In this document: positions 2,380-39,116 of the stretch, piece after piece | Layout of the letters: every line of letters begins with the position of its first letter | Numbering within the stretch: the first letter of the stretch is position 1 | NCBI GenBank assembly: GCA_013043005.1 | Contig: JABDOZ010000180.1 | Span: 1-39,496, forward strand | DNA: 39,496 nt | Reading direction: 5' to 3' | From: Flavobacteriaceae bacterium | GTDB lineage: Bacteria > Bacteroidota > Bacteroidia > Flavobacteriales > Flavobacteriaceae | Notes under the pieces: model-generated | The model's database searches: none | Told to the model about the DNA's origin: nothing | The model's input: the letters and a program-made list of their open reading frames with translations, nothing else | Program-made: the position numbers and the translations under genes

Positions 2380-3636
2380 TTACATTCCGGTTCTTATCGC
2401 TTCTACCGGATCTAATCTGGAAGCAGACAAAGCCGGTAAAATACCAGCAATAAGACCTATTATAGTAGAGACAATAAATCCTATAACCATGTTTTTAAAG
2501 GATAAGATAAATTCAAAATCTCCTGTAATTTGTGAGAGTCCTACTGTAGCTATCCAAACCAGAATTAGTCCAACTATACCACCTATAACAGCTAAAATGA
2601 CTGCTTCAAACAAAAACTGAAATAGGATAAATCGGTTTTTAGCTCCAAGTGATTTTTGAATTCCAATTAAATTGGTTCTTTCTTTAACACTCACAAACAT
2701 TATATTGGCAATCCCAAAGCCTCCAACAAGTAAAGAGAAGCCACTAATAACCCAACCAAAAACATTCATTTGGCCGGTAATATTATCAATAAAGTCGGTA
2801 AATCCCTGTAATTGATTTACAAAGAAGTTTGTAACTTCATCTGGTTTTAGACCCCTATAAAGTCTTAATCTTTGCGTGATCATTGCATTAAATTCTGCCA
2901 GATCAATCCCACTTTCTGGTTTAACCATTATAGCAGGAAATGCAAATCTGTTATTTTCTCCAAAAATTCTTCTAACAAAATTTACGGGAACAAAGACCGC
3001 CGTATCCTTTGAATTGCCAAAAAGTCCGGATCCTTCTTTTTTTAAGACTCCAATTACGTTGAATTTCCTGCCGTAAAGTCTAACCTGCTTTCCAATTGGA
3101 TTAAAATCGTCAAACAAACTGTTTGCCACTTCATCACCTAAAACGACAACCGGAACTCCAGAATTCGACTCCGATTCATTGAAGAAACGACCTTGTGCTA
3201 TTTGCAGGCTTTCAATATCATAATATTCATGTGTAATGGCTCCAATTCCAACATTGGTAATAGATCTATCCTGATATTTAACTGTTTCTTCACCTACATT
3301 TAATTGAAAAGTGGCAGCTTCAACATTTGGAATTTTATTGGCAATGAATTGGTACTCATCAAAAGTCATATCCGGGAATTGTTCTTTCTTCCAATTTGGA
3401 ATATTCGGTGTTGGTGCGAACGAAAATCGCATGATGTAAAGTGTGCTATTATCTAATGAGCTAATACTACCCTTTATTTCCTCCTTTAAGGAGTCAACTG
3501 CAGCCAACACTGCTATAATGGAAAAAATACCTATTGTTACACCTAACAATGATAAAAAAGTACGCAACTTATTGTTGCGCAAAGCATTTATTGCAAAATA
3601 GAAGCTCTCTTTAACTAATCGAAGGTAAAAAAACAT
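2380..3636 (-). CDS. MacB/FtsX-type ABC transporter permease (paralog 1)
   Basis: MacB architecture: N-terminal TM, large periplasmic domain, C-terminal three TM; ALRNNKLRTFLSLLGVTIGIFSIIAV; ...ERTNLIGIQKSLGA...LDPVEAIRTG. Confidence 0.85.
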   Translation of the reverse strand: MFFYLRLVKESFYFAINALRNNKLRTFLSLLGVTIGIFSIIAVLAAVDSLKEEIKGSISSLDNSTLYIMRFSFAPTPNIPNWKKEQFPDMTFDEYQFIANKIPNVEAATFQLNVGEETVKYQDRSITNVGIGAITHEYYDIESLQIAQGRFFNESESNSGVPVVVLGDEVANSLFDDFNPIGKQVRLYGRKFNVIGVLKKEGSGLFGNSKDTAVFVPVNFVRRIFGENNRFAFPAIMVKPESGIDLAEFNAMITQRLRLYRGLKPDEVTNFFVNQLQGFTDFIDNITGQMNVFGWVISGFSLLVGGFGIANIMFVSVKERTNLIGIQKSLGAKNRFILFQFLFEAVILAVIGGIVGLILVWIATVGLSQITGDFEFILSFKNMVIGFIVSTIIGLIAGILPALSASRLDPVEAIRTGM

Positions 3637-30816: not shown

Positions 30817-30850
30817 AAAAACCCTCTTGAATTTTCAAAAGGGTTAATAA
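30812..30850 (-). terminator. Intrinsic terminator for the minus-strand PPIase gene
   Basis: Minus strand AACCCTTTTGAAAATTCAAGAGGGTT followed by TTTTTTATAC; an 11-bp stem with one mismatch. The T-tract reaches the stop codon of the convergent kinase gene. Confidence 0.75.
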
Positions 30851-30866
30851 TTTATAGTAACATATT

Positions 30867-33023
30867 CTATTGTACAGTTTCTGCACGGTTATCTTCAATA
30901 TCAGCTGCTGTCTTTAGCGCATTAAACAAGGATGAATTTACAGAATTCACTCGTTTGTTTGTTATTTGATTTGCCATAGCCTGGTAATTGTCTAATTCTA
31001 TAGCTGGTGTTACTTTTGTAACTTCTAAAATATAAACTCCATTGTTGCCATCAATTAGACCAGAGGTTTCACCTTCTTGCAAACCGAAAGCCGTTCCCAC
31101 TACTTTTGGTTCTCTACCTGCTCCGGAAAGAGTTGGATTCTTCATATTTACAGCTAATGCTGTTCGTACTGACTGCTTTTGATTAGATGCAACTTCCTGC
31201 ACAGTTGCACCTGTAACATTTTCTCTTATCTGCTTCGCTTTTTTCTGTTTTCTGACTAAAGGGACAACTGTTGCAGAAGCGTTTTCAACACTCATAAGTC
31301 CTTCTTCATTTTTAGCAGATAATTGAACAACTACATAGCCTCCTCCTGGAAGATTAAATCGATCTGAATCACCAATATTTCTTTCTTCCTCAAAGGCCCA
31401 TCTTACAATAGCACGTTGATTGCCAACTCCTGGAATATTCTCCTGCAATAATTTAATTCCATTAACAGGACGTACTACATAATTCTTTTCTTTTGCTACT
31501 TCCTGAAAATCTCCTTCCTCTATTGCTATCTCAAATTTAGACGTATCTGTAAATACATTGTCTATGGTTTTTTCTGAAGGTTGAATCTTTCTGCCAATTG
31601 TAGCTAATTTAACAACTTTCTGCTTGTCTTTTTGTCCTTCTATTTCAATTATATGAAATCCAAATGCTGTTTTAACTACTCCTAAATCACCTTTATTTCC
31701 TTCAAATGTAAAGTCTCTGAATTCTGGAACCATTGTGTTATATGCGTACCAATCATATCGCCCTTCTTTTTCAATACTACCCTGATCTGAAGAAAACTCT
31801 CTTACAAAATCAGGAAATTTAGAACGGTTTACTTTTAAAATAGATGCTAAGCTATCTGCTGTTGCCTTAGCTTCAGATTCAGTTTGAGAAACTTTAGATG
31901 GATCTGCACTTGCAGCGCCAACAAATGGAATTAGAATATGTCTGGATTTTACAGAATCAGGAAGCTGCTTAAATTCAACCATCTTAGTCAATTTAAAGTA
32001 TCCTGCATCTTTGTATGGTCCGAAGATTTTACCTTTATTCATGTTAAAAACACTATCAGCGTATGCTACCGGAATGTCTTTTTTGAATAAAAATCTGTCA
32101 TCATATTTAATATCTGATCCGGCAATCACATTGACGAAACTCTCGTTATCTTTAACTTTTCCGAACCCTGGAATTGTATCGTTATTTTTTGTTATTTCAT
32201 TATACTCTACTTTACCTTCCAGTAATTTATTTAACTCGTCTTGAATTGTGTTTTCGTCTTCCAGAGTTGCTTCTTCTTTAAATAGAACATAATTTATATC
32301 CCTGGTTGCTTCAACTTCAAAGTCCTTGGGATGTTTTTTAATATAATCACTAATTTCTGTTTTACTTACAGTTATTGTACTGTCTGCAATAGAAGAATAA
32401 GGAATTTGGACGAACTTTATATCAACTTTATTATTTTCCAATTCATGCTCCATTTTACCTTCTGCAACTGTAGCGGTCACACCAGCTTTCACCATGTTGT
32501 AATATGCTTTTTCTTTAGCTGATGCCGCTAAATTTGCTTCTGTCTCTAACCACTGGTTATACAAGGCAAAACTATTGGCATCAGATTCTGCATTAGCCTT
32601 TAAGTTAGCCAAAAACTCATTAAGTTTTCCTTCATCAAAAACACCATCTTCATTTAAAAATGTAGGATCCTGGCCATATCTTGTTTTTATAAGATCTTTC
32701 ATTTGCTCATTTTCCACTTCTAATCCCAACTCATTGAACTCTGTTTCCAGAATAGCGCGACGTACCTCAATATCCCAAACTCTGTTCATTGCTTGTGTAC
32801 TTGAGGCTGAAGGTCCCATTTGCCTTTGAATTACTTCCACTTTTCGTAAAAAATCTTCCCGTGAAATGTCATTTCCGTTAATTGTGGCAATGATATTTTG
32901 AGATTTACTTGTGAGAGCGCCACTGTTTCTAAATAGATCTGCCAAAACAAATGAAAAAAGAGCTAAAGCAATAACCAATATTAAGAAAAGAGAACGCTGT
33001 CTGATTTTATTTAAAACTGCCAT
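30867..33023 (-). CDS. SurA N-terminal/PpiD-like peptidylprolyl isomerase (periplasmic folding factor)
   Basis: N-terminal TM anchor (ALALFSFVLADLFRN), SurA_N segment, parvulin domain (SRHILIPF...FPDFVREFSSDQGSIEKEGRYDWY...FGFHIIEIEGQ). Confidence 0.92.
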   Translation of the reverse strand: MAVLNKIRQRSLFLILVIALALFSFVLADLFRNSGALTSKSQNIIATINGNDISREDFLRKVEVIQRQMGPSASSTQAMNRVWDIEVRRAILETEFNELGLEVENEQMKDLIKTRYGQDPTFLNEDGVFDEGKLNEFLANLKANAESDANSFALYNQWLETEANLAASAKEKAYYNMVKAGVTATVAEGKMEHELENNKVDIKFVQIPYSSIADSTITVSKTEISDYIKKHPKDFEVEATRDINYVLFKEEATLEDENTIQDELNKLLEGKVEYNEITKNNDTIPGFGKVKDNESFVNVIAGSDIKYDDRFLFKKDIPVAYADSVFNMNKGKIFGPYKDAGYFKLTKMVEFKQLPDSVKSRHILIPFVGAASADPSKVSQTESEAKATADSLASILKVNRSKFPDFVREFSSDQGSIEKEGRYDWYAYNTMVPEFRDFTFEGNKGDLGVVKTAFGFHIIEIEGQKDKQKVVKLATIGRKIQPSEKTIDNVFTDTSKFEIAIEEGDFQEVAKEKNYVVRPVNGIKLLQENIPGVGNQRAIVRWAFEEERNIGDSDRFNLPGGGYVVVQLSAKNEEGLMSVENASATVVPLVRKQKKAKQIRENVTGATVQEVASNQKQSVRTALAVNMKNPTLSGAGREPKVVGTAFGLQEGETSGLIDGNNGVYILEVTKVTPAIELDNYQAMANQITNKRVNSVNSSLFNALKTAADIEDNRAETVQ

Positions 33024-33119: not shown

Positions 33120-34409
33120 TTAATCTAAGTCTTGAATTTTAAGATGTACAAGGTCTATTTTAGTATTGGACACTTCCAGAATTGTAATCTTTAGATTATC
33201 AATTGAAACCTCGTCATTCTTTTCAGGAATCATCTCGGTATAATTTACAATTAATCCACCCAATGTTTCATAATTTTCATCTTCCGGTAAATTGAATTTA
33301 TATGTTTCGTTTAAATAATCAATCTCGAGTCTTGCAGACAATCTAAAATTATTATCATCTATTTTTTCATCGATCAGTTCGATAGAATCATGCTCATCCT
33401 CAATCTCACCAAACAACTCTTCTACAATATCTTCAACTGTCAATATACCTGATGTTCCCCCATATTCATCTAAAACAACTGCAATACTTTTTCTCTTTTT
33501 TGTTAGATTATTCAATATGTCTTTGATCAACATGGTTTCAGGAACAAATTCTACCGGTAAAATTATTGACTTAATGGTCTTTGGTTTCTTGAATAATTCA
33601 AATGAATGGACATACCCTAAAATATCATCAATTGTATCTTTGTATACCAAAATTTTTGAATAACCTGTATCTGTGAATATTGAACTCAGGTCTTTTGGGT
33701 TTTCATGCAACTCTACAGCAGTTATTTCTGTTCTTGGAACCATGATCTCTCTTGCCTTTACTTCAGAAAATTCCAAAGCATTTTGAAATATTTGTATTTC
33801 TGAATCTACATCATCCGTCTCCTCTACAGATTCCATTTGTTCACTAATATAATTTCCTAATTCAATCTTAGTAAAAACAAGTTGCACATTATCCCCTTCT
33901 GTTTTAAAGATTTTCACTAAAATCACATCGGTTATCCACATTACAAAATTTGATATCAGGCTAAACAACCAATAGAAGAAATATGCGGGAACTGAGAAAA
34001 ATTTAATGAGTTTGTTTGAATAGATCTGAAAAAACACTTTTGGTAAAAATTCTGCTGTGATAAGAATTATTATCGTTGAAATTATTGTTTGTGTCAATAA
34101 ATTGAAATCTGTTAGAGCAGAATTAATAACAGAACTACTTGATGGTAAAATTGTATCAAACCATCCCATTAACAAATCACCCATAAATAATCCGTAAATA
34201 ACCAATGCAATGTTATTTCCAATTAACATGGTTGCCATAAACTTAGACGGTTTATTAGTAAGCCTTGTTAAAATTTTTGCAATGAAATCATTTTGCTTTT
34301 TTTCAATTTCAATATGGATTTTATTCGAAGACACGTAAGCGATCTCCATACCTGAAAAGAAAGCGGATAACAATAAGGATACAATTATAATTATTATATC
34401 ACTATTCAT
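33120..34409 (-). CDS. CNNM/HlyC-CorC family protein (DUF21 + CBS pair + transporter-associated domain)
   Basis: DUF21 TM region, CBS motifs (REIMVPRTEITAVEL, KSIAVVLDEYGGTSGILTVEDIVEELFGEIEDEHD), C-terminal CorC_HlyC domain (YETLGGLIV). Confidence 0.93.
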   Translation of the reverse strand: MNSDIIIIIVSLLLSAFFSGMEIAYVSSNKIHIEIEKKQNDFIAKILTRLTNKPSKFMATMLIGNNIALVIYGLFMGDLLMGWFDTILPSSSSVINSALTDFNLLTQTIISTIIILITAEFLPKVFFQIYSNKLIKFFSVPAYFFYWLFSLISNFVMWITDVILVKIFKTEGDNVQLVFTKIELGNYISEQMESVEETDDVDSEIQIFQNALEFSEVKAREIMVPRTEITAVELHENPKDLSSIFTDTGYSKILVYKDTIDDILGYVHSFELFKKPKTIKSIILPVEFVPETMLIKDILNNLTKKRKSIAVVLDEYGGTSGILTVEDIVEELFGEIEDEHDSIELIDEKIDDNNFRLSARLEIDYLNETYKFNLPEDENYETLGGLIVNYTEMIPEKNDEVSIDNLKITILEVSNTKIDLVHLKIQDLD

Positions 34410-34412
34410 AAC

Positions 34413-34607
34413 TTATTGGTTGTTCTTATCCTCAAATTTTTTTCTGTAACGTTTTCTAAAAAAGAAAATAAATACCGCTAATGCTGCCAATAAAAGAGAC
34501 ATTAAAGCTCTGGTACCATTACCAGTCGACCATTGTGTATAGGCGTCGTACAAAAAAAGGATCGCAAAAACCAGATATGCATATTGAAAAAACCCTAATA
34601 GTTTCAT
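34413..34607 (-). CDS. Small hypothetical membrane protein
   Basis: 64-aa ORF with two TM segments and a basic C-terminus; 3 nt from the CNNM gene, so probably translated in the operon. Confidence 0.65.
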   Translation of the reverse strand: MKLLGFFQYAYLVFAILFLYDAYTQWSTGNGTRALMSLLLAALAVFIFFFRKRYRKKFEDKNNQ

Positions 34608-34640: not shown

Positions 34641-35195
34641 TTATTCATCAAGATAAACAATTCCTGTGATTTCCAGTACTCTTGATTTTGTAAAATCCAT
34701 ATTGGAATCGAAACCATTACCATTGATTATTTGTTCGTTGTCAGAAAATTTAATGGGTTTATTAGTAAAAAGCCATTCTTTTTCCTGATCGAAGTACAAT
34801 TGCTCAGCCTCCAGCTTTTTCCCTTCATACGTGGTTAATACAACATTATCTTGCAGATCTATTAGATTGGTTTTATCATATACTATGGCATAATCTGAAA
34901 CTATGGTACTTTTTTGATTTTCGGAGTTAAACAAATAGAGTGTAATCCCATCTGTAAACTCAGAATATGGAAAGTCCAGATTACTGTAATCGTACATCTT
35001 TTTGCTTATGAGGTGAGCTTGAAGTTTCCCTGAATCTGTGTACTTTAAATTAATATCTTCAGCAATTCCAATAGGTTCGTTCTGAGATATCCCAATTTTT
35101 TGAACTTCTTTAAAATTACTTTCACAACAAAAAAACATGGTCACAAAAATTATTGTGACCATGTTTAACATTATTTGCTTTAAATTTGATATCAT
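34641..35195 (-). CDS. lptC: LPS export ABC transporter periplasmic protein LptC
   Basis: Lipoprotein signal MISNLKQIMLNMVTIIFVTMFFCCES; LptC-like beta repeats (DLQDNVVLTTYEGKKLEAEQLYFDQEKEWLFTNKPIKFSD...INGNGFDSNMDF). The start shares one base with the TPR gene stop. Confidence 0.88.
   Translation of the reverse strand: MISNLKQIMLNMVTIIFVTMFFCCESNFKEVQKIGISQNEPIGIAEDINLKYTDSGKLQAHLISKKMYDYSNLDFPYSEFTDGITLYLFNSENQKSTIVSDYAIVYDKTNLIDLQDNVVLTTYEGKKLEAEQLYFDQEKEWLFTNKPIKFSDNEQIINGNGFDSNMDFTKSRVLEITGIVYLDE
35129..35166 (-). terminator. Terminator-like hairpin embedded in the 5' coding part of lptC
   Basis: Perfect 14-bp stem on the minus strand, AAACATGGTCACAA-TAATTT-TTGTGACCATGTTT, followed by TTTT (T7 run including stem bases). 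Confidence 0.6.
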
Positions 35196-36577
35196 TATAT
35201 GCTAGGAACTTTAACACTGCCTCCTACCCAACATTTGAAAGAAATTGTTTCACCAGAATTACCTTTTGCAAAAATTTCACTTTTACTTGGTGCCTTGGCC
35301 ATATAGTTAGCAGCCTGTTTTGCTGCCGTCTTCGCTAAGTTTCTATCCACTCTTCCAGCCTTTCTGGATTCATCTGCTGCTTTCCAGTAGATTGCTCTTT
35401 TTGTAAAGTTATCATCTCCACAGTTATTTGCACTTTTAGCATACATTTGTCCAACAACCAAATGAACTTTACCCATTGATGGATTTGCCTTTAAAGCTTT
35501 GTAGTAGTAATTCCTTGCCCCAGAATAATTGCCATTTTTTCTTAATTTATCACCAATCTTATATAAAATTTTTGATTTTTCAAATTGATCTGGTTCTAGA
35601 TCAATAGCTTGATTGTAAAAAGAGATTGCTTCTCTTGTTTTACCTTCTTTATCCTTTAAGTATCCTAAATAATATGCTGTATCAGCAGAAGGATTTGTGT
35701 TGTGATAAGCATTTACCAATTTAAAGAATAATGGATCGTCAGTACATTCTTTAGAAGCCATTCTGTTAACTGCTCTTTTCAACCAAATGCCATCATTTTT
35801 ATTAGATTCAAAATCTCTACTATATAGTGGAATTAAATTATCACAATTTGCCCTGCTACCCAGTTTAGAATCTATACTGCCGGATACTTTATCATAAGCA
35901 CTTAAATAACTCTCATAAGATTTTTTATACTTACTTTCCTTTTTTGTCAATTCGGTTCCAGCTTCTTCCTTAACAACTAATTTATTTAATTTCGTTGTAT
36001 AGTTCTTTATCTCAGATTCAATTTTTTCAAATACATCATCATATTTATTAAACAGTTCCCGAGCTGGTTTTTGTCCTTTATCAAACAAATCAACCATTAA
36101 AGAGAAATATGTGTATAATCCTTTAGGATTGGTAAAAGTTTTGGCATCTTCTGTAAAAGCTTTATCAAATGCATCATAAACTTGTTGGTCTGATTTACCC
36201 AAAGCATCCTTATTATCATACATTAATTGAGCTTTTTTAGACAATAAATCACCTTTTTTCAATTTATTAGGAAAATTCTCTGCTTTCTGATCCCAAAGTT
36301 TAAGAAGATCATTGATGTTTGCGGTTTTATCCGCTCCTGAAGAATTCTTTATTCTATCCTTTAAAATACGTTCTCCATAAACATAAATAGCTTTATTGAA
36401 TTTTGGACATTCATTTCTTACCAGCATCCAAGGCTCGTAAGCTGCATTATAATTTTTAGATTTTACATATTCACTAAAAATTGACAAATTGGTCATACAT
36501 TGCTCATTCTGCTGAGTAAATCCAAAATTAAGTCCCAAAAACAGAACAGAGATAATTAGTGTAATTTTCGTCTTCAT
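35195..36577 (-). CDS. Tetratricopeptide-repeat secreted protein
   Basis: Signal peptide; TPR segments (ADTAYYLGYLKDKEGKTREAISFYNQAIDLEPDQFEKSKILYKIGDKLRKNGNYSGARNYYYKALKANPS). Confidence 0.85.
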   Translation of the reverse strand: MKTKITLIISVLFLGLNFGFTQQNEQCMTNLSIFSEYVKSKNYNAAYEPWMLVRNECPKFNKAIYVYGERILKDRIKNSSGADKTANINDLLKLWDQKAENFPNKLKKGDLLSKKAQLMYDNKDALGKSDQQVYDAFDKAFTEDAKTFTNPKGLYTYFSLMVDLFDKGQKPARELFNKYDDVFEKIESEIKNYTTKLNKLVVKEEAGTELTKKESKYKKSYESYLSAYDKVSGSIDSKLGSRANCDNLIPLYSRDFESNKNDGIWLKRAVNRMASKECTDDPLFFKLVNAYHNTNPSADTAYYLGYLKDKEGKTREAISFYNQAIDLEPDQFEKSKILYKIGDKLRKNGNYSGARNYYYKALKANPSMGKVHLVVGQMYAKSANNCGDDNFTKRAIYWKAADESRKAGRVDRNLAKTAAKQAANYMAKAPSKSEIFAKGNSGETISFKCWVGGSVKVPSI

Positions 36578-36616: not shown

Positions 36617-37915
36617 TTAGTCAAATTTTCTTTTTTCAAACCATCTATCATTTAAAGATAAGCTTAATTGTACATTTATAAAATTTTCTTTTATTAAATT
36701 ATTGTTGGTGGTTCCTCTTTTGCCAATTTCTAGACCAAAATTTGTATTAGAGAAAACCCGGCCAACTGGTAATCCTACTCCAAAAGATATGCCAAACTCA
36801 TTTATCGTTTCTGAATTGATGTTTAATCCGGTATTTTCAAATTTAACTCCTGCCCTGTAAACAATGCGCTTCCAGTAGCTTGTCAATGATTTATAATTAG
36901 GAATAATAAAACCTCCAAAACTAAAAGTAGAACCATCCTCATACACCGATCCTGCTGAACCCAGAAAGTCATTATAAAATTCACTGGTATTCTGAGACGT
37001 ATACTCTGCACCTAAAAACCATTTTTTTGGTTGACCCAAACCGGCTCCAAATGAAAGTCTGGATGGGATTGTCAAGTCCGTTTCCCTTTCATCATCACTG
37101 AGGGTTGTATCAATAGTTTCCTGAACATCTTCAAAACCGTTAAAGAAAATTTGAATAGTTGAAAACGATCTTTGGTTGATTGATGACAAATTAAATTCCG
37201 GAGCATAGGTGATTCCGGTGATCAACTCTAATTTTGGAGTAATCATTTTTTTATACGATAAACCGAAATTGTAGTTCAAGCCACTAAGGTCTGATCTGTT
37301 CTCTTCCCTGGATTGAAATTGAAGCGGATTGCCATCTGAATCATATAAAAAGGCTATGGAGCTGTTTTGAATATTTCCAAAATCATAGTTTGCATCTATT
37401 CCTATACTTAATTCCTTTGTGACCTGGTAGGCTAATGTTAAAAATGCTTTGTTTAAGCCACCTTCTCCTCGATATCTATTTGTTATATCATCACCATTGT
37501 AAGATTCTAACTTATAGCCTACAGAAGTATATGGCATCAGACCAAATCCTAATCCAAATTTACCAATTGGTATACCCAGTGCCAAATAATCAAAGGTTGT
37601 AGATGCTGTTTTTTCCTCAGCATCATCAGTAATTAACTTGAGTGAGTTATTACTACCACCAACAGTAAACTTAACAGGTCTGTTATCCCCACCAAAAGAA
37701 GCTAAATCTAAACCTGCATAAGATGCAGGATTCCTTAAATTTATGTGAATACTATCCGTATAGATACTTAAACCTCCCATACTTCTGTTTTCTACAGTTC
37801 CTTTAAATTTCAGGCTGCCTATACCATAAAATGAATAAGGTGAAGTTGTACCTTCTTGTGCTTGAATATTGAATGCAAAAATAGCAATTATGACAAATAA
37901 AAGTTTTTTTATCAT
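36617..37915 (-). CDS. Outer-membrane beta-barrel protein (FadL/PorV-like architecture)
   Basis: Signal peptide, SPYSFYGIGSLKFKGTVENRSMGGLSI, NLRNPASYAGL, repeated amphipathic strands, C-terminal NVQLSLSLNDRWFEKRKFD. Overlaps the coaX stop by 4 bp. Confidence 0.85.
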   Translation of the reverse strand: MIKKLLFVIIAIFAFNIQAQEGTTSPYSFYGIGSLKFKGTVENRSMGGLSIYTDSIHINLRNPASYAGLDLASFGGDNRPVKFTVGGSNNSLKLITDDAEEKTASTTFDYLALGIPIGKFGLGFGLMPYTSVGYKLESYNGDDITNRYRGEGGLNKAFLTLAYQVTKELSIGIDANYDFGNIQNSSIAFLYDSDGNPLQFQSREENRSDLSGLNYNFGLSYKKMITPKLELITGITYAPEFNLSSINQRSFSTIQIFFNGFEDVQETIDTTLSDDERETDLTIPSRLSFGAGLGQPKKWFLGAEYTSQNTSEFYNDFLGSAGSVYEDGSTFSFGGFIIPNYKSLTSYWKRIVYRAGVKFENTGLNINSETINEFGISFGVGLPVGRVFSNTNFGLEIGKRGTTNNNLIKENFINVQLSLSLNDRWFEKRKFD

Positions 37916-38643
37916 TTACTTAAATTATATTCCAAAATAAAGTTTAACCCTTCCAACAAGAAATTAGAGTTCGCAAATATGGTACTTTTTAATTGGTTAG
38001 ACAAAAAATCAGCGTCTCCACCTGTTAAAATAACTGTTAATTCTTTAAATTCTTCGCTATATTTAGTGACAACACCATTTATTTCAAGTAAAACTCCAAA
38101 AATAATACCTGAATGTATGGATTCGTCTGTTGTAGTGCCTGTAATATCCTCTGGTAGTTTGGTATCTAATAACGGTAAATTAGCAGTCAAATTATTTAAA
38201 GACTGATACCGCTGTCTTATACCAGGAGAAATGGCACCTCCTAAATACTCATTTTTATTGTTTATAAAATCATAAGTAATGCATGTCCCCGCATCGATAA
38301 TTAAAACATTTCTCGTTGAATAATTTTGGACCGCACTGCTTACCAGAGCAATTCTATCAACACCGAGTGTTTTTGGAGATTTGTATAAATTTTTAAAAGG
38401 TAGTTTGCAATTAGCATCCAGAACCAATAGTTGAACTTTTAACCGAATTTTATCTAACAATGATGCTTTAACTTTCCCAACTGAAGATATTACAGACTTG
38501 TCAATTTGTGGAAATTTTTTCAGCAGTTTATTAACGGAAGATATAATTCTTGAGGGCTTGATTGTTTCTTTAATGACCAAATAATTTTTATCAAAAACGG
38601 CTAGTTTAACATTTGTATTTCCTACATCAATTATTAGGTTCAT
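37912..38643 (-). CDS. coaX: Type III pantothenate kinase
   Basis: MNLIIDVGNTNVKLAVFD, KTLGVDRIALVSSA, NVLIIDAGTCITYDFIN, YLGGAISPGIRQRYQSL, VILTGGDA. Confidence 0.95.
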   Translation of the reverse strand: MNLIIDVGNTNVKLAVFDKNYLVIKETIKPSRIISSVNKLLKKFPQIDKSVISSVGKVKASLLDKIRLKVQLLVLDANCKLPFKNLYKSPKTLGVDRIALVSSAVQNYSTRNVLIIDAGTCITYDFINNKNEYLGGAISPGIRQRYQSLNNLTANLPLLDTKLPEDITGTTTDESIHSGIIFGVLLEINGVVTKYSEEFKELTVILTGGDADFLSNQLKSTIFANSNFLLEGLNFILEYNLSK

Positions 38644-38867: not shown

Positions 38868-38940
<73 letters not shown>

Positions 38941-38950
38941 CATAAAGCAC

Positions 38951-38978
38951 AAAACCCGTTCGAAAGAGCGGGTTTTTT
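38951..38978 (+). terminator. Intrinsic terminator downstream of tRNA-Phe
   Basis: AAAACCCGTTC-GAAA-GAGCGGGTTTT then TT; 11-bp stem with one G-T wobble and a GNRA loop. Confidence 0.85.
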
Positions 38979-39116
38979 ATTTATAAAGGCGTGGGAAGAT
39001 TGCTTACCAAAACTTAAGTAAATGTAAAAACGGCTAACGTTGTTAGCCGGGTTGTATTTTCAATAGTTAGACCAAAGGAACACAATGCGCAGCTGAGTAT
39101 CTCCTAGTGGTGCCAC

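Follow-up and report, generated by a model that had tools for sequence, protein, structure and literature searches.

Gene organization of the lptC region

The window, i.e., the whole stretch of 39,496 nucleotides of a Flavobacteriaceae bacterium that was analyzed, contains a run of co-directed genes on its minus strand. The first gene of this cluster is coaX (37912-38643), which was assigned to type III pantothenate kinases by family search, and it is followed by bamG (36617-37915), encoding an outer-membrane barrel protein (NF053685, 460 bits versus a cut-off of 250). BamG is a core and apparently essential subunit of the BAM complex of Bacteroidota (PMC12611786). Downstream of bamG lie a gene for a TPR-repeat protein of 460 aa (35195-36577; family search) and lptC (34641-35195), which encodes a protein of 184 aa (PF06835, E 3e-16; TIGR04409, E 8e-25). 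The TPR gene had been predicted to end where lptC begins, and the TAA of the former and the ATG of the latter were indeed found to overlap by one base (TAATG). The run continues with a gene for a 64-aa membrane protein that matched no family (34413-34607), a CNNM/CorC-type membrane protein gene (33120-34409), and, as its last member, a SurA/PpiD-like peptidyl-prolyl isomerase gene (30867-33023), the latter two assigned by family search. It is closed by an ordinary gene-end terminator on the same strand (30820-30845), consisting of 11 pairs followed by a T-rich tail, an architecture that is shared by the hairpin in lptC described below.

The Bacteroidetes -7 motif TAnnTTTG did not occur in the window at a frequency above chance, and there was no match to it on the minus strand from the hairpin to the 5' end of the TPR gene; on this basis, a promoter of lptC's own within the window was rejected.

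A terminator-like hairpin in the signal-peptide codons of lptC

On the minus strand, positions 35166-35129 read AAACATGGTCACAA TAATTT TTGTGACCATGTTT TTTT, in which a perfect stem of 14 bp encloses a 6-nt loop and runs directly into T's. This confirms the element originally predicted at about 30 nt past the lptC ATG; the actual onset of the stem is 29 nt downstream of the first base of this codon (35195). The 5' arm (35153-35166) and the loop (35147-35152) were read directly from the sequence, as were the 3' arm (35133-35146) and the T7 tract (35129-35135), which would form the U-tract in the RNA. A homologous 5' arm is present in relatives, and the 3' arm covaries with the 5' arm. The T7 tract is composed of the last three T's of the stem and four further T's at 35132-35129, and it coincides with the FF codons of the lipobox region. 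With 5 GC among its 14 pairs, the element combines a stable, G-C-containing stem-loop with a U-tract directly after the stem, as is typical of intrinsic terminators.

Among the terminator-like sites in the 30-39.5 kb part of the window, the lptC hairpin is the best paired (14 pairs). The genome contains no second copy of its exact sequence, and when searched with a covariance model built for the hairpin family, it gave a sole strong match, in lptC (70 bits), with 35 bits for the antisense strand of lptC and 30 bits for the next independent site. The surrounding 146-nt region has a predicted folding energy of -30.9 kcal/mol, versus -22.6 kcal/mol for shuffled sequences (z -2.7). A comparison with shuffled codons had been proposed along with the original prediction; the native hairpin was stronger in 149 of 150 draws of synonymous recoding of the same peptide (-22.4 versus a mean of -12.5). 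Membership of a known RNA family was rejected, since Rfam 15 gave no match at the gathering score, the best chance match reaching 22 bits versus a gathering score of 58.7.

The genome-wide rarity of such elements was estimated from 400 kb of the complete genome of a relative (G126), in which the -20.1 kcal/mol of the lptC hairpin compares with a weaker median of -15.3 kcal/mol for 27 intergenic terminator-like hairpins. Just three sense-strand in-ORF hairpins of the same class were found in these 400 kb, lptC's included. Of the other two, one (L207) seems to result from an ORF start placed too far upstream, and the other (L213, in a DUF2490-like gene) is not shared by relatives; the idea that flavobacterial signal peptides commonly harbor such hairpins was therefore rejected.

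Conservation, covariation, and phylogenetic distribution

Relatives were gathered via LptC protein similarity, independently of the hairpin, and most of the roughly 60 sequences obtained carry a stem of 12-18 bp in the same codons. In 58 aligned sequences, 93.4% of the cells are paired, compared to 86.4% in shuffles, and changes on both sides of a pair were found in 69 cells, distributed over 8 of 15 pairs, versus 14 cells in shuffles and 4-10 in slid-partner controls. Mapped on a tree of LptC bodies, these correspond to about 27 separate double-change events, such as ATGGTC..GACCAT for ATAGTC..GACTAT, GTCAC..GTGAC for GTCAT..ATGAC, and the variant CCATAG..CTATGG in Bizionia. G-U combinations occur in 39 cells versus A-C in a single cell, and some paired positions co-change through amino-acid replacement (T to M with V to M). 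In three loci (L005, L006, and L010) a codon is inserted in the loop and the stem is extended to 16-17 bp. The hairpins of relatives have a median energy of about -20 kcal/mol; native sequences usually reach -20 kcal/mol or lower, whereas synonymous recodings average near -11 kcal/mol, with a median z of -3.0 (162 sequences, non-Flavobacteriales included). A lack of stem conservation in relatives had been named among the conditions that would refute the original prediction, and this check came out clearly in its favor: the stem is kept by double compensating changes, and the claim of a terminator-like element under selection in the lptC signal-peptide codons, at a position from which upstream transcripts could be ended, is supported. 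On the basis of the covariation, the synonymous null, and the relocation outside lptC described below, the hairpin is judged not to be a product of chance, and an origin by chance or peptide symmetry was rejected.

The tract that follows the stem has a median of 7 T in 8 positions in relatives. The codon two before the lipobox Cys is TTT in 117 cases and TTC in none when it encodes Phe, as compared to 1207:267 in the LptC body (18% TTC), and the codon directly before Cys, when encoding Ser, is TCN in 132 cases and AGY in none, as compared to 956:522 (35% AGY); the sequences underlying these Phe and Ser counts are not phylogenetically independent. Judged from this codon choice, the T-tract is selected at synonymous sites.

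The covariance model matched in 276 of 400 genomes of the family, representing 179 of 237 genera, a figure that is slightly generous because near-threshold matches can be ordinary gene-end terminators (L131, L137, L138, L140, and L141); the top 30 loci of the model are all located in lptC. When genomes without a model match were sampled, 25 of 30 still had a strong hairpin of other sequence in the same place, as exemplified by AAAAGCGTGATGGCAAC-TTTG-GTTGTCATCACGCTTTT in L154. A rough estimate from these comparisons would place the hairpin in about 95% of the Flavobacteriaceae. It is absent from L064-L066, L156, L157, L167, and L168, the final four of which are mostly small genomes, and in view of these absences the hairpin is not considered indispensable. 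Other Flavobacteriales families also contain it (L110, L114, L118, L122, L134, L135, L136, and L139), and in the rest of the class its occurrence is patchy (families f20 and f25, parts of f45, f48, f68, f32), with most lineages lacking it. Hairpins of unrelated sequence occur in or near the same lptC codons in scattered Bacteroidia families outside the Flavobacteriales (L179, L185, L187, L188, L196, L227, L229, L249, and L250), for which common ancestry and repeated origin are both possible. One locus (L126, genome G021) contains two lptC start regions about 2 kb apart (1015-1077 and 2991-3053) with identical hairpins, which suggests a recent tandem duplication including lptC.

Relocated starts and distance to the open reading frame

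In Bizionia arctica (L058), Xanthomarina gelatinilytica (L054), and a MAG (L056), lptC has a new downstream start and signal peptide, while the hairpin and a T7-8 tract are retained 25-30 nt past the TPR stop codon, inside a short open leader ORF (for example, MINTVLHKTNYIVTAFAVTMFFLYSIYLFF followed by a stop). These three relocations may represent one event. In two other loci (L124 in G006 and L125 in G379), a second signal-peptide-like stretch is inserted between the hairpin and mature LptC, possibly resulting in two membrane-targeting segments in one protein. Taken together, the relocation and the insertion indicate that the element is kept apart from its coding role.

The distance from the ORF start to the stem has a median of 29 nt, and 80% of the values fall within 24-32 nt. 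In five loci (L112, L116, L119, L121, and L174), which were assigned to Flavobacterium because their LptC is 58-65% identical to that of a named Flavobacterium record, the junction is without the TPR gene and bamG precedes lptC, separated by a spacer of about 50 nt. The stem in these loci is located 30-35 nt from the lptC start and 81-86 nt from the upstream stop codon. Across the contexts compared, the hairpin's distance to an ORF start is what stays constant. The bamG-lptC spacer of four of these loci (L112, L116, L119, and L174) contains a conserved sequence, AAGCTCATTACAATTTACTACATTTGGCAAATG, within which TACATTTG resembles the Bacteroidetes -7 element, and lptC may have its own promoter at TACATTTG in such Flavobacterium-like loci.

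Interpretation as a probable start-proximal intrinsic terminator

The hairpin, its U-tract, the selection on both, and the fixed distance to an ORF start can be read from the sequences themselves. Their most probable explanation, to which a probability of about 75% is assigned, is that the hairpin acts as a conserved start-proximal intrinsic (Rho-independent) terminator in the lptC signal-peptide codons, with read-through alone feeding lptC and later genes. According to this model, polymerase would arrive from the coaX-bamG-TPR genes (in Flavobacterium, from bamG or from a promoter close by), and the stem would fold 29 nt after the lptC start codon, confronting the polymerase with a full-strength terminator too early for a ribosome begun on lptC to catch up. 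Some of the polymerases would then be released at the U7 tract, and lptC and the genes after it would be supplied by read-through alone, leaving their expression below that of the upstream genes. We infer that transcripts end at the U-tract, that this termination is partial, and that it serves to adjust how much lptC is expressed.

In Escherichia coli, measured efficiency is maximal (about 0.9) for terminators separated from a stop codon by more than 30 bp, and a terminator 30 bp inside an ORF becomes just about 10% less efficient when this ORF is translated (PMC4824070). When these geometry data are carried over from another phylum, a mainly constitutive throttle would be expected, and such a throttle is regarded as more likely than a regulated switch. 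Several considerations weigh against a terminator. A transcript that ended in lptC would be without a stop codon for the ribosomes begun there, which is costly, and a strong stop ahead of lptC, a probably essential gene, would need either enough read-through or a second promoter, for which no candidate was identified in the window. Moreover, hairpins also serve in RNA processing and pausing.

The original prediction went further in proposing that termination is relieved by translation of lptC. In such a translation-gated attenuator, the first lptC codons would act as a leader ORF, and a ribosome that has begun on lptC, or one that has just completed translation of the TPR gene, would cover the stem and allow read-through, whereas lagging translation would lead to a stop. 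This reading is considered possible but doubtful. An ORF start is found 24-35 nt before the stem in nearly every context, including Flavobacterium, where the upstream stop codon is 81-86 nt away, and pyrBI-type leaders operate similarly (PMC5021804). The stem usually lies 24-35 nt past an ORF start, which fits the placement of terminators in leader-peptide attenuators, within a short translated ORF or directly behind it, and a short open leader ORF through the hairpin persists in the three loci with relocated starts, although it may be a mere young relic there. However, inspection of aligned N-termini revealed that the codons between start and stem vary freely, with no conserved regulatory codons or pause sequence, and conserved antiterminator pairing upstream was lacking as well: an alifold covering the 5' arm together with 110 nt upstream gave no consensus structure, with just the terminator helix conserved, and a two-state switch or antiterminator upstream of the stem was rejected for this reason. 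The loss of only about 10% in E. coli (PMC4824070) also argues against gating. Thus, of the translation-coupled antitermination originally proposed, the selected terminator-like element stood, and its relief by lptC translation did not find comparable backing; a fixed partial terminator would be no less probable than a conditional one. A still somewhat more tentative variant holds that the lipoprotein signal sequence of lptC is itself the leader peptide, and that translation or the export state of the signal peptide decides on polymerase passage. If true, such an attenuator would tie expression of a lipopolysaccharide-transport gene to translation or envelope status across the Flavobacteriales.

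The remaining alternatives dispense with termination. A hairpin that protects the 3' end of a processed coaX-bamG-TPR RNA, or that marks a cleavage site, would account for a strong, covariation-kept stem at a gene junction, but it leaves the synonymous-site selection for an unbroken U-tract unexplained, and Flavobacterium keeps the hairpin inside lptC although its 50-nt spacer would be free to hold one; a processing or stability function is therefore judged unlikely. The perfect dyad and the half-site CATAGTCAC, conserved in many genera, might also suggest a DNA operator bound by a regulator. This was rejected as highly improbable in view of the tolerance of GT mismatches but not of AC (39 versus 1), the freely changing arm sequences among lineages (ATAGTCAC, ATTGCTGCC, and GTGATGGC), and the variable loop length and arm spacing, and the one-sidedness of the conserved T-tract points in the same direction. 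Finally, the near-symmetric signal peptide (IVT..VTM) present in many species could have generated the palindrome as a by-product with no nucleic-acid function, a probability that becomes negligible given that the fold is lost on synonymous recoding, that pairs co-change through amino-acid replacements, and that the hairpin survives outside lptC in L054, L056, and L058.

Relation to known systems and implications

The putative lptC terminator shares features with several known systems. The operon-internal partial terminators of Clostridia ABC importers (PMC9045158) likewise consist of a stem-loop and a U-rich tail between co-directed genes, with less downstream RNA expected; they are intergenic, whereas the lptC hairpin lies inside the downstream coding sequence and is order-wide. 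Attenuators of the pyrBI type (PMC4824070, PMC5021804) also have an intrinsic terminator near an ORF start that is translated through, but the translated ORF at lptC is normally the structural gene itself, and conserved regulatory codons, a pause site, and an antiterminator are missing. Premature ORF-internal 3' ends detected by Term-seq in E. coli (PMC7815308) are found within or upstream of ORFs, some with intrinsic-terminator features as at lptC, where the comparison instead concerns selection at one gene across an order. The closest geometry is that of the synthetic tR2 construct W48 (PMC4824070), in which a terminator was engineered 30 bp after the AUG in E. coli with about 10% loss to translation, whereas the lptC hairpin is natural and conserved in the Flavobacteriales. 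Precedents thus exist for 3' ends inside ORFs (PMC7815308), for partial terminators within operons (PMC9045158), and for leader attenuators (pyrBI). What would be novel is a terminator that is maintained by covariation within signal-peptide codons, and this in one and the same gene throughout an order. A literature search, which was incomplete and provides weak evidence of absence, retrieved neither a report of such an element nor a direct record, for Bacteroidota, of an attenuator at lptC or of any conserved terminator inside an ORF, and lptC is unmentioned in the main text of a Flavobacterium psychrophilum transcriptome paper.

Apparent terminators within genes are usually dismissed as noise, and the one in lptC is kept by dozens of compensating mutations across an order, with selection that goes as far as shaping the sequence of the LptC signal peptide. 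The pattern suggests that flavobacteria throttle transcription at the lptC start. If the hairpin terminates, the supply of LptC would be set by read-through downstream of the BAM gene bamG, offering a handle on the balance between outer-membrane protein and LPS machinery. Signal-peptide codons, being sequence-tolerant and Phe/Leu-rich, would be a natural hiding place for terminators, and this pattern can be searched for elsewhere.

Other terminator-like hairpins

The hairpin of the DUF2490-like gene in G126 (L213, 3733-3762) has a 13-bp stem and a T-rich tail and is likewise located in signal-peptide codons, beside a carbonic-anhydrase-like gene; it is unconserved in relatives (1-2 of 10) and served as a negative control. 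On the plus strand of the window, the region 38868-39049 contains a tRNA-Phe gene and two strong terminator-like hairpins just past the tRNA (38951-38976 and 39031-39049).
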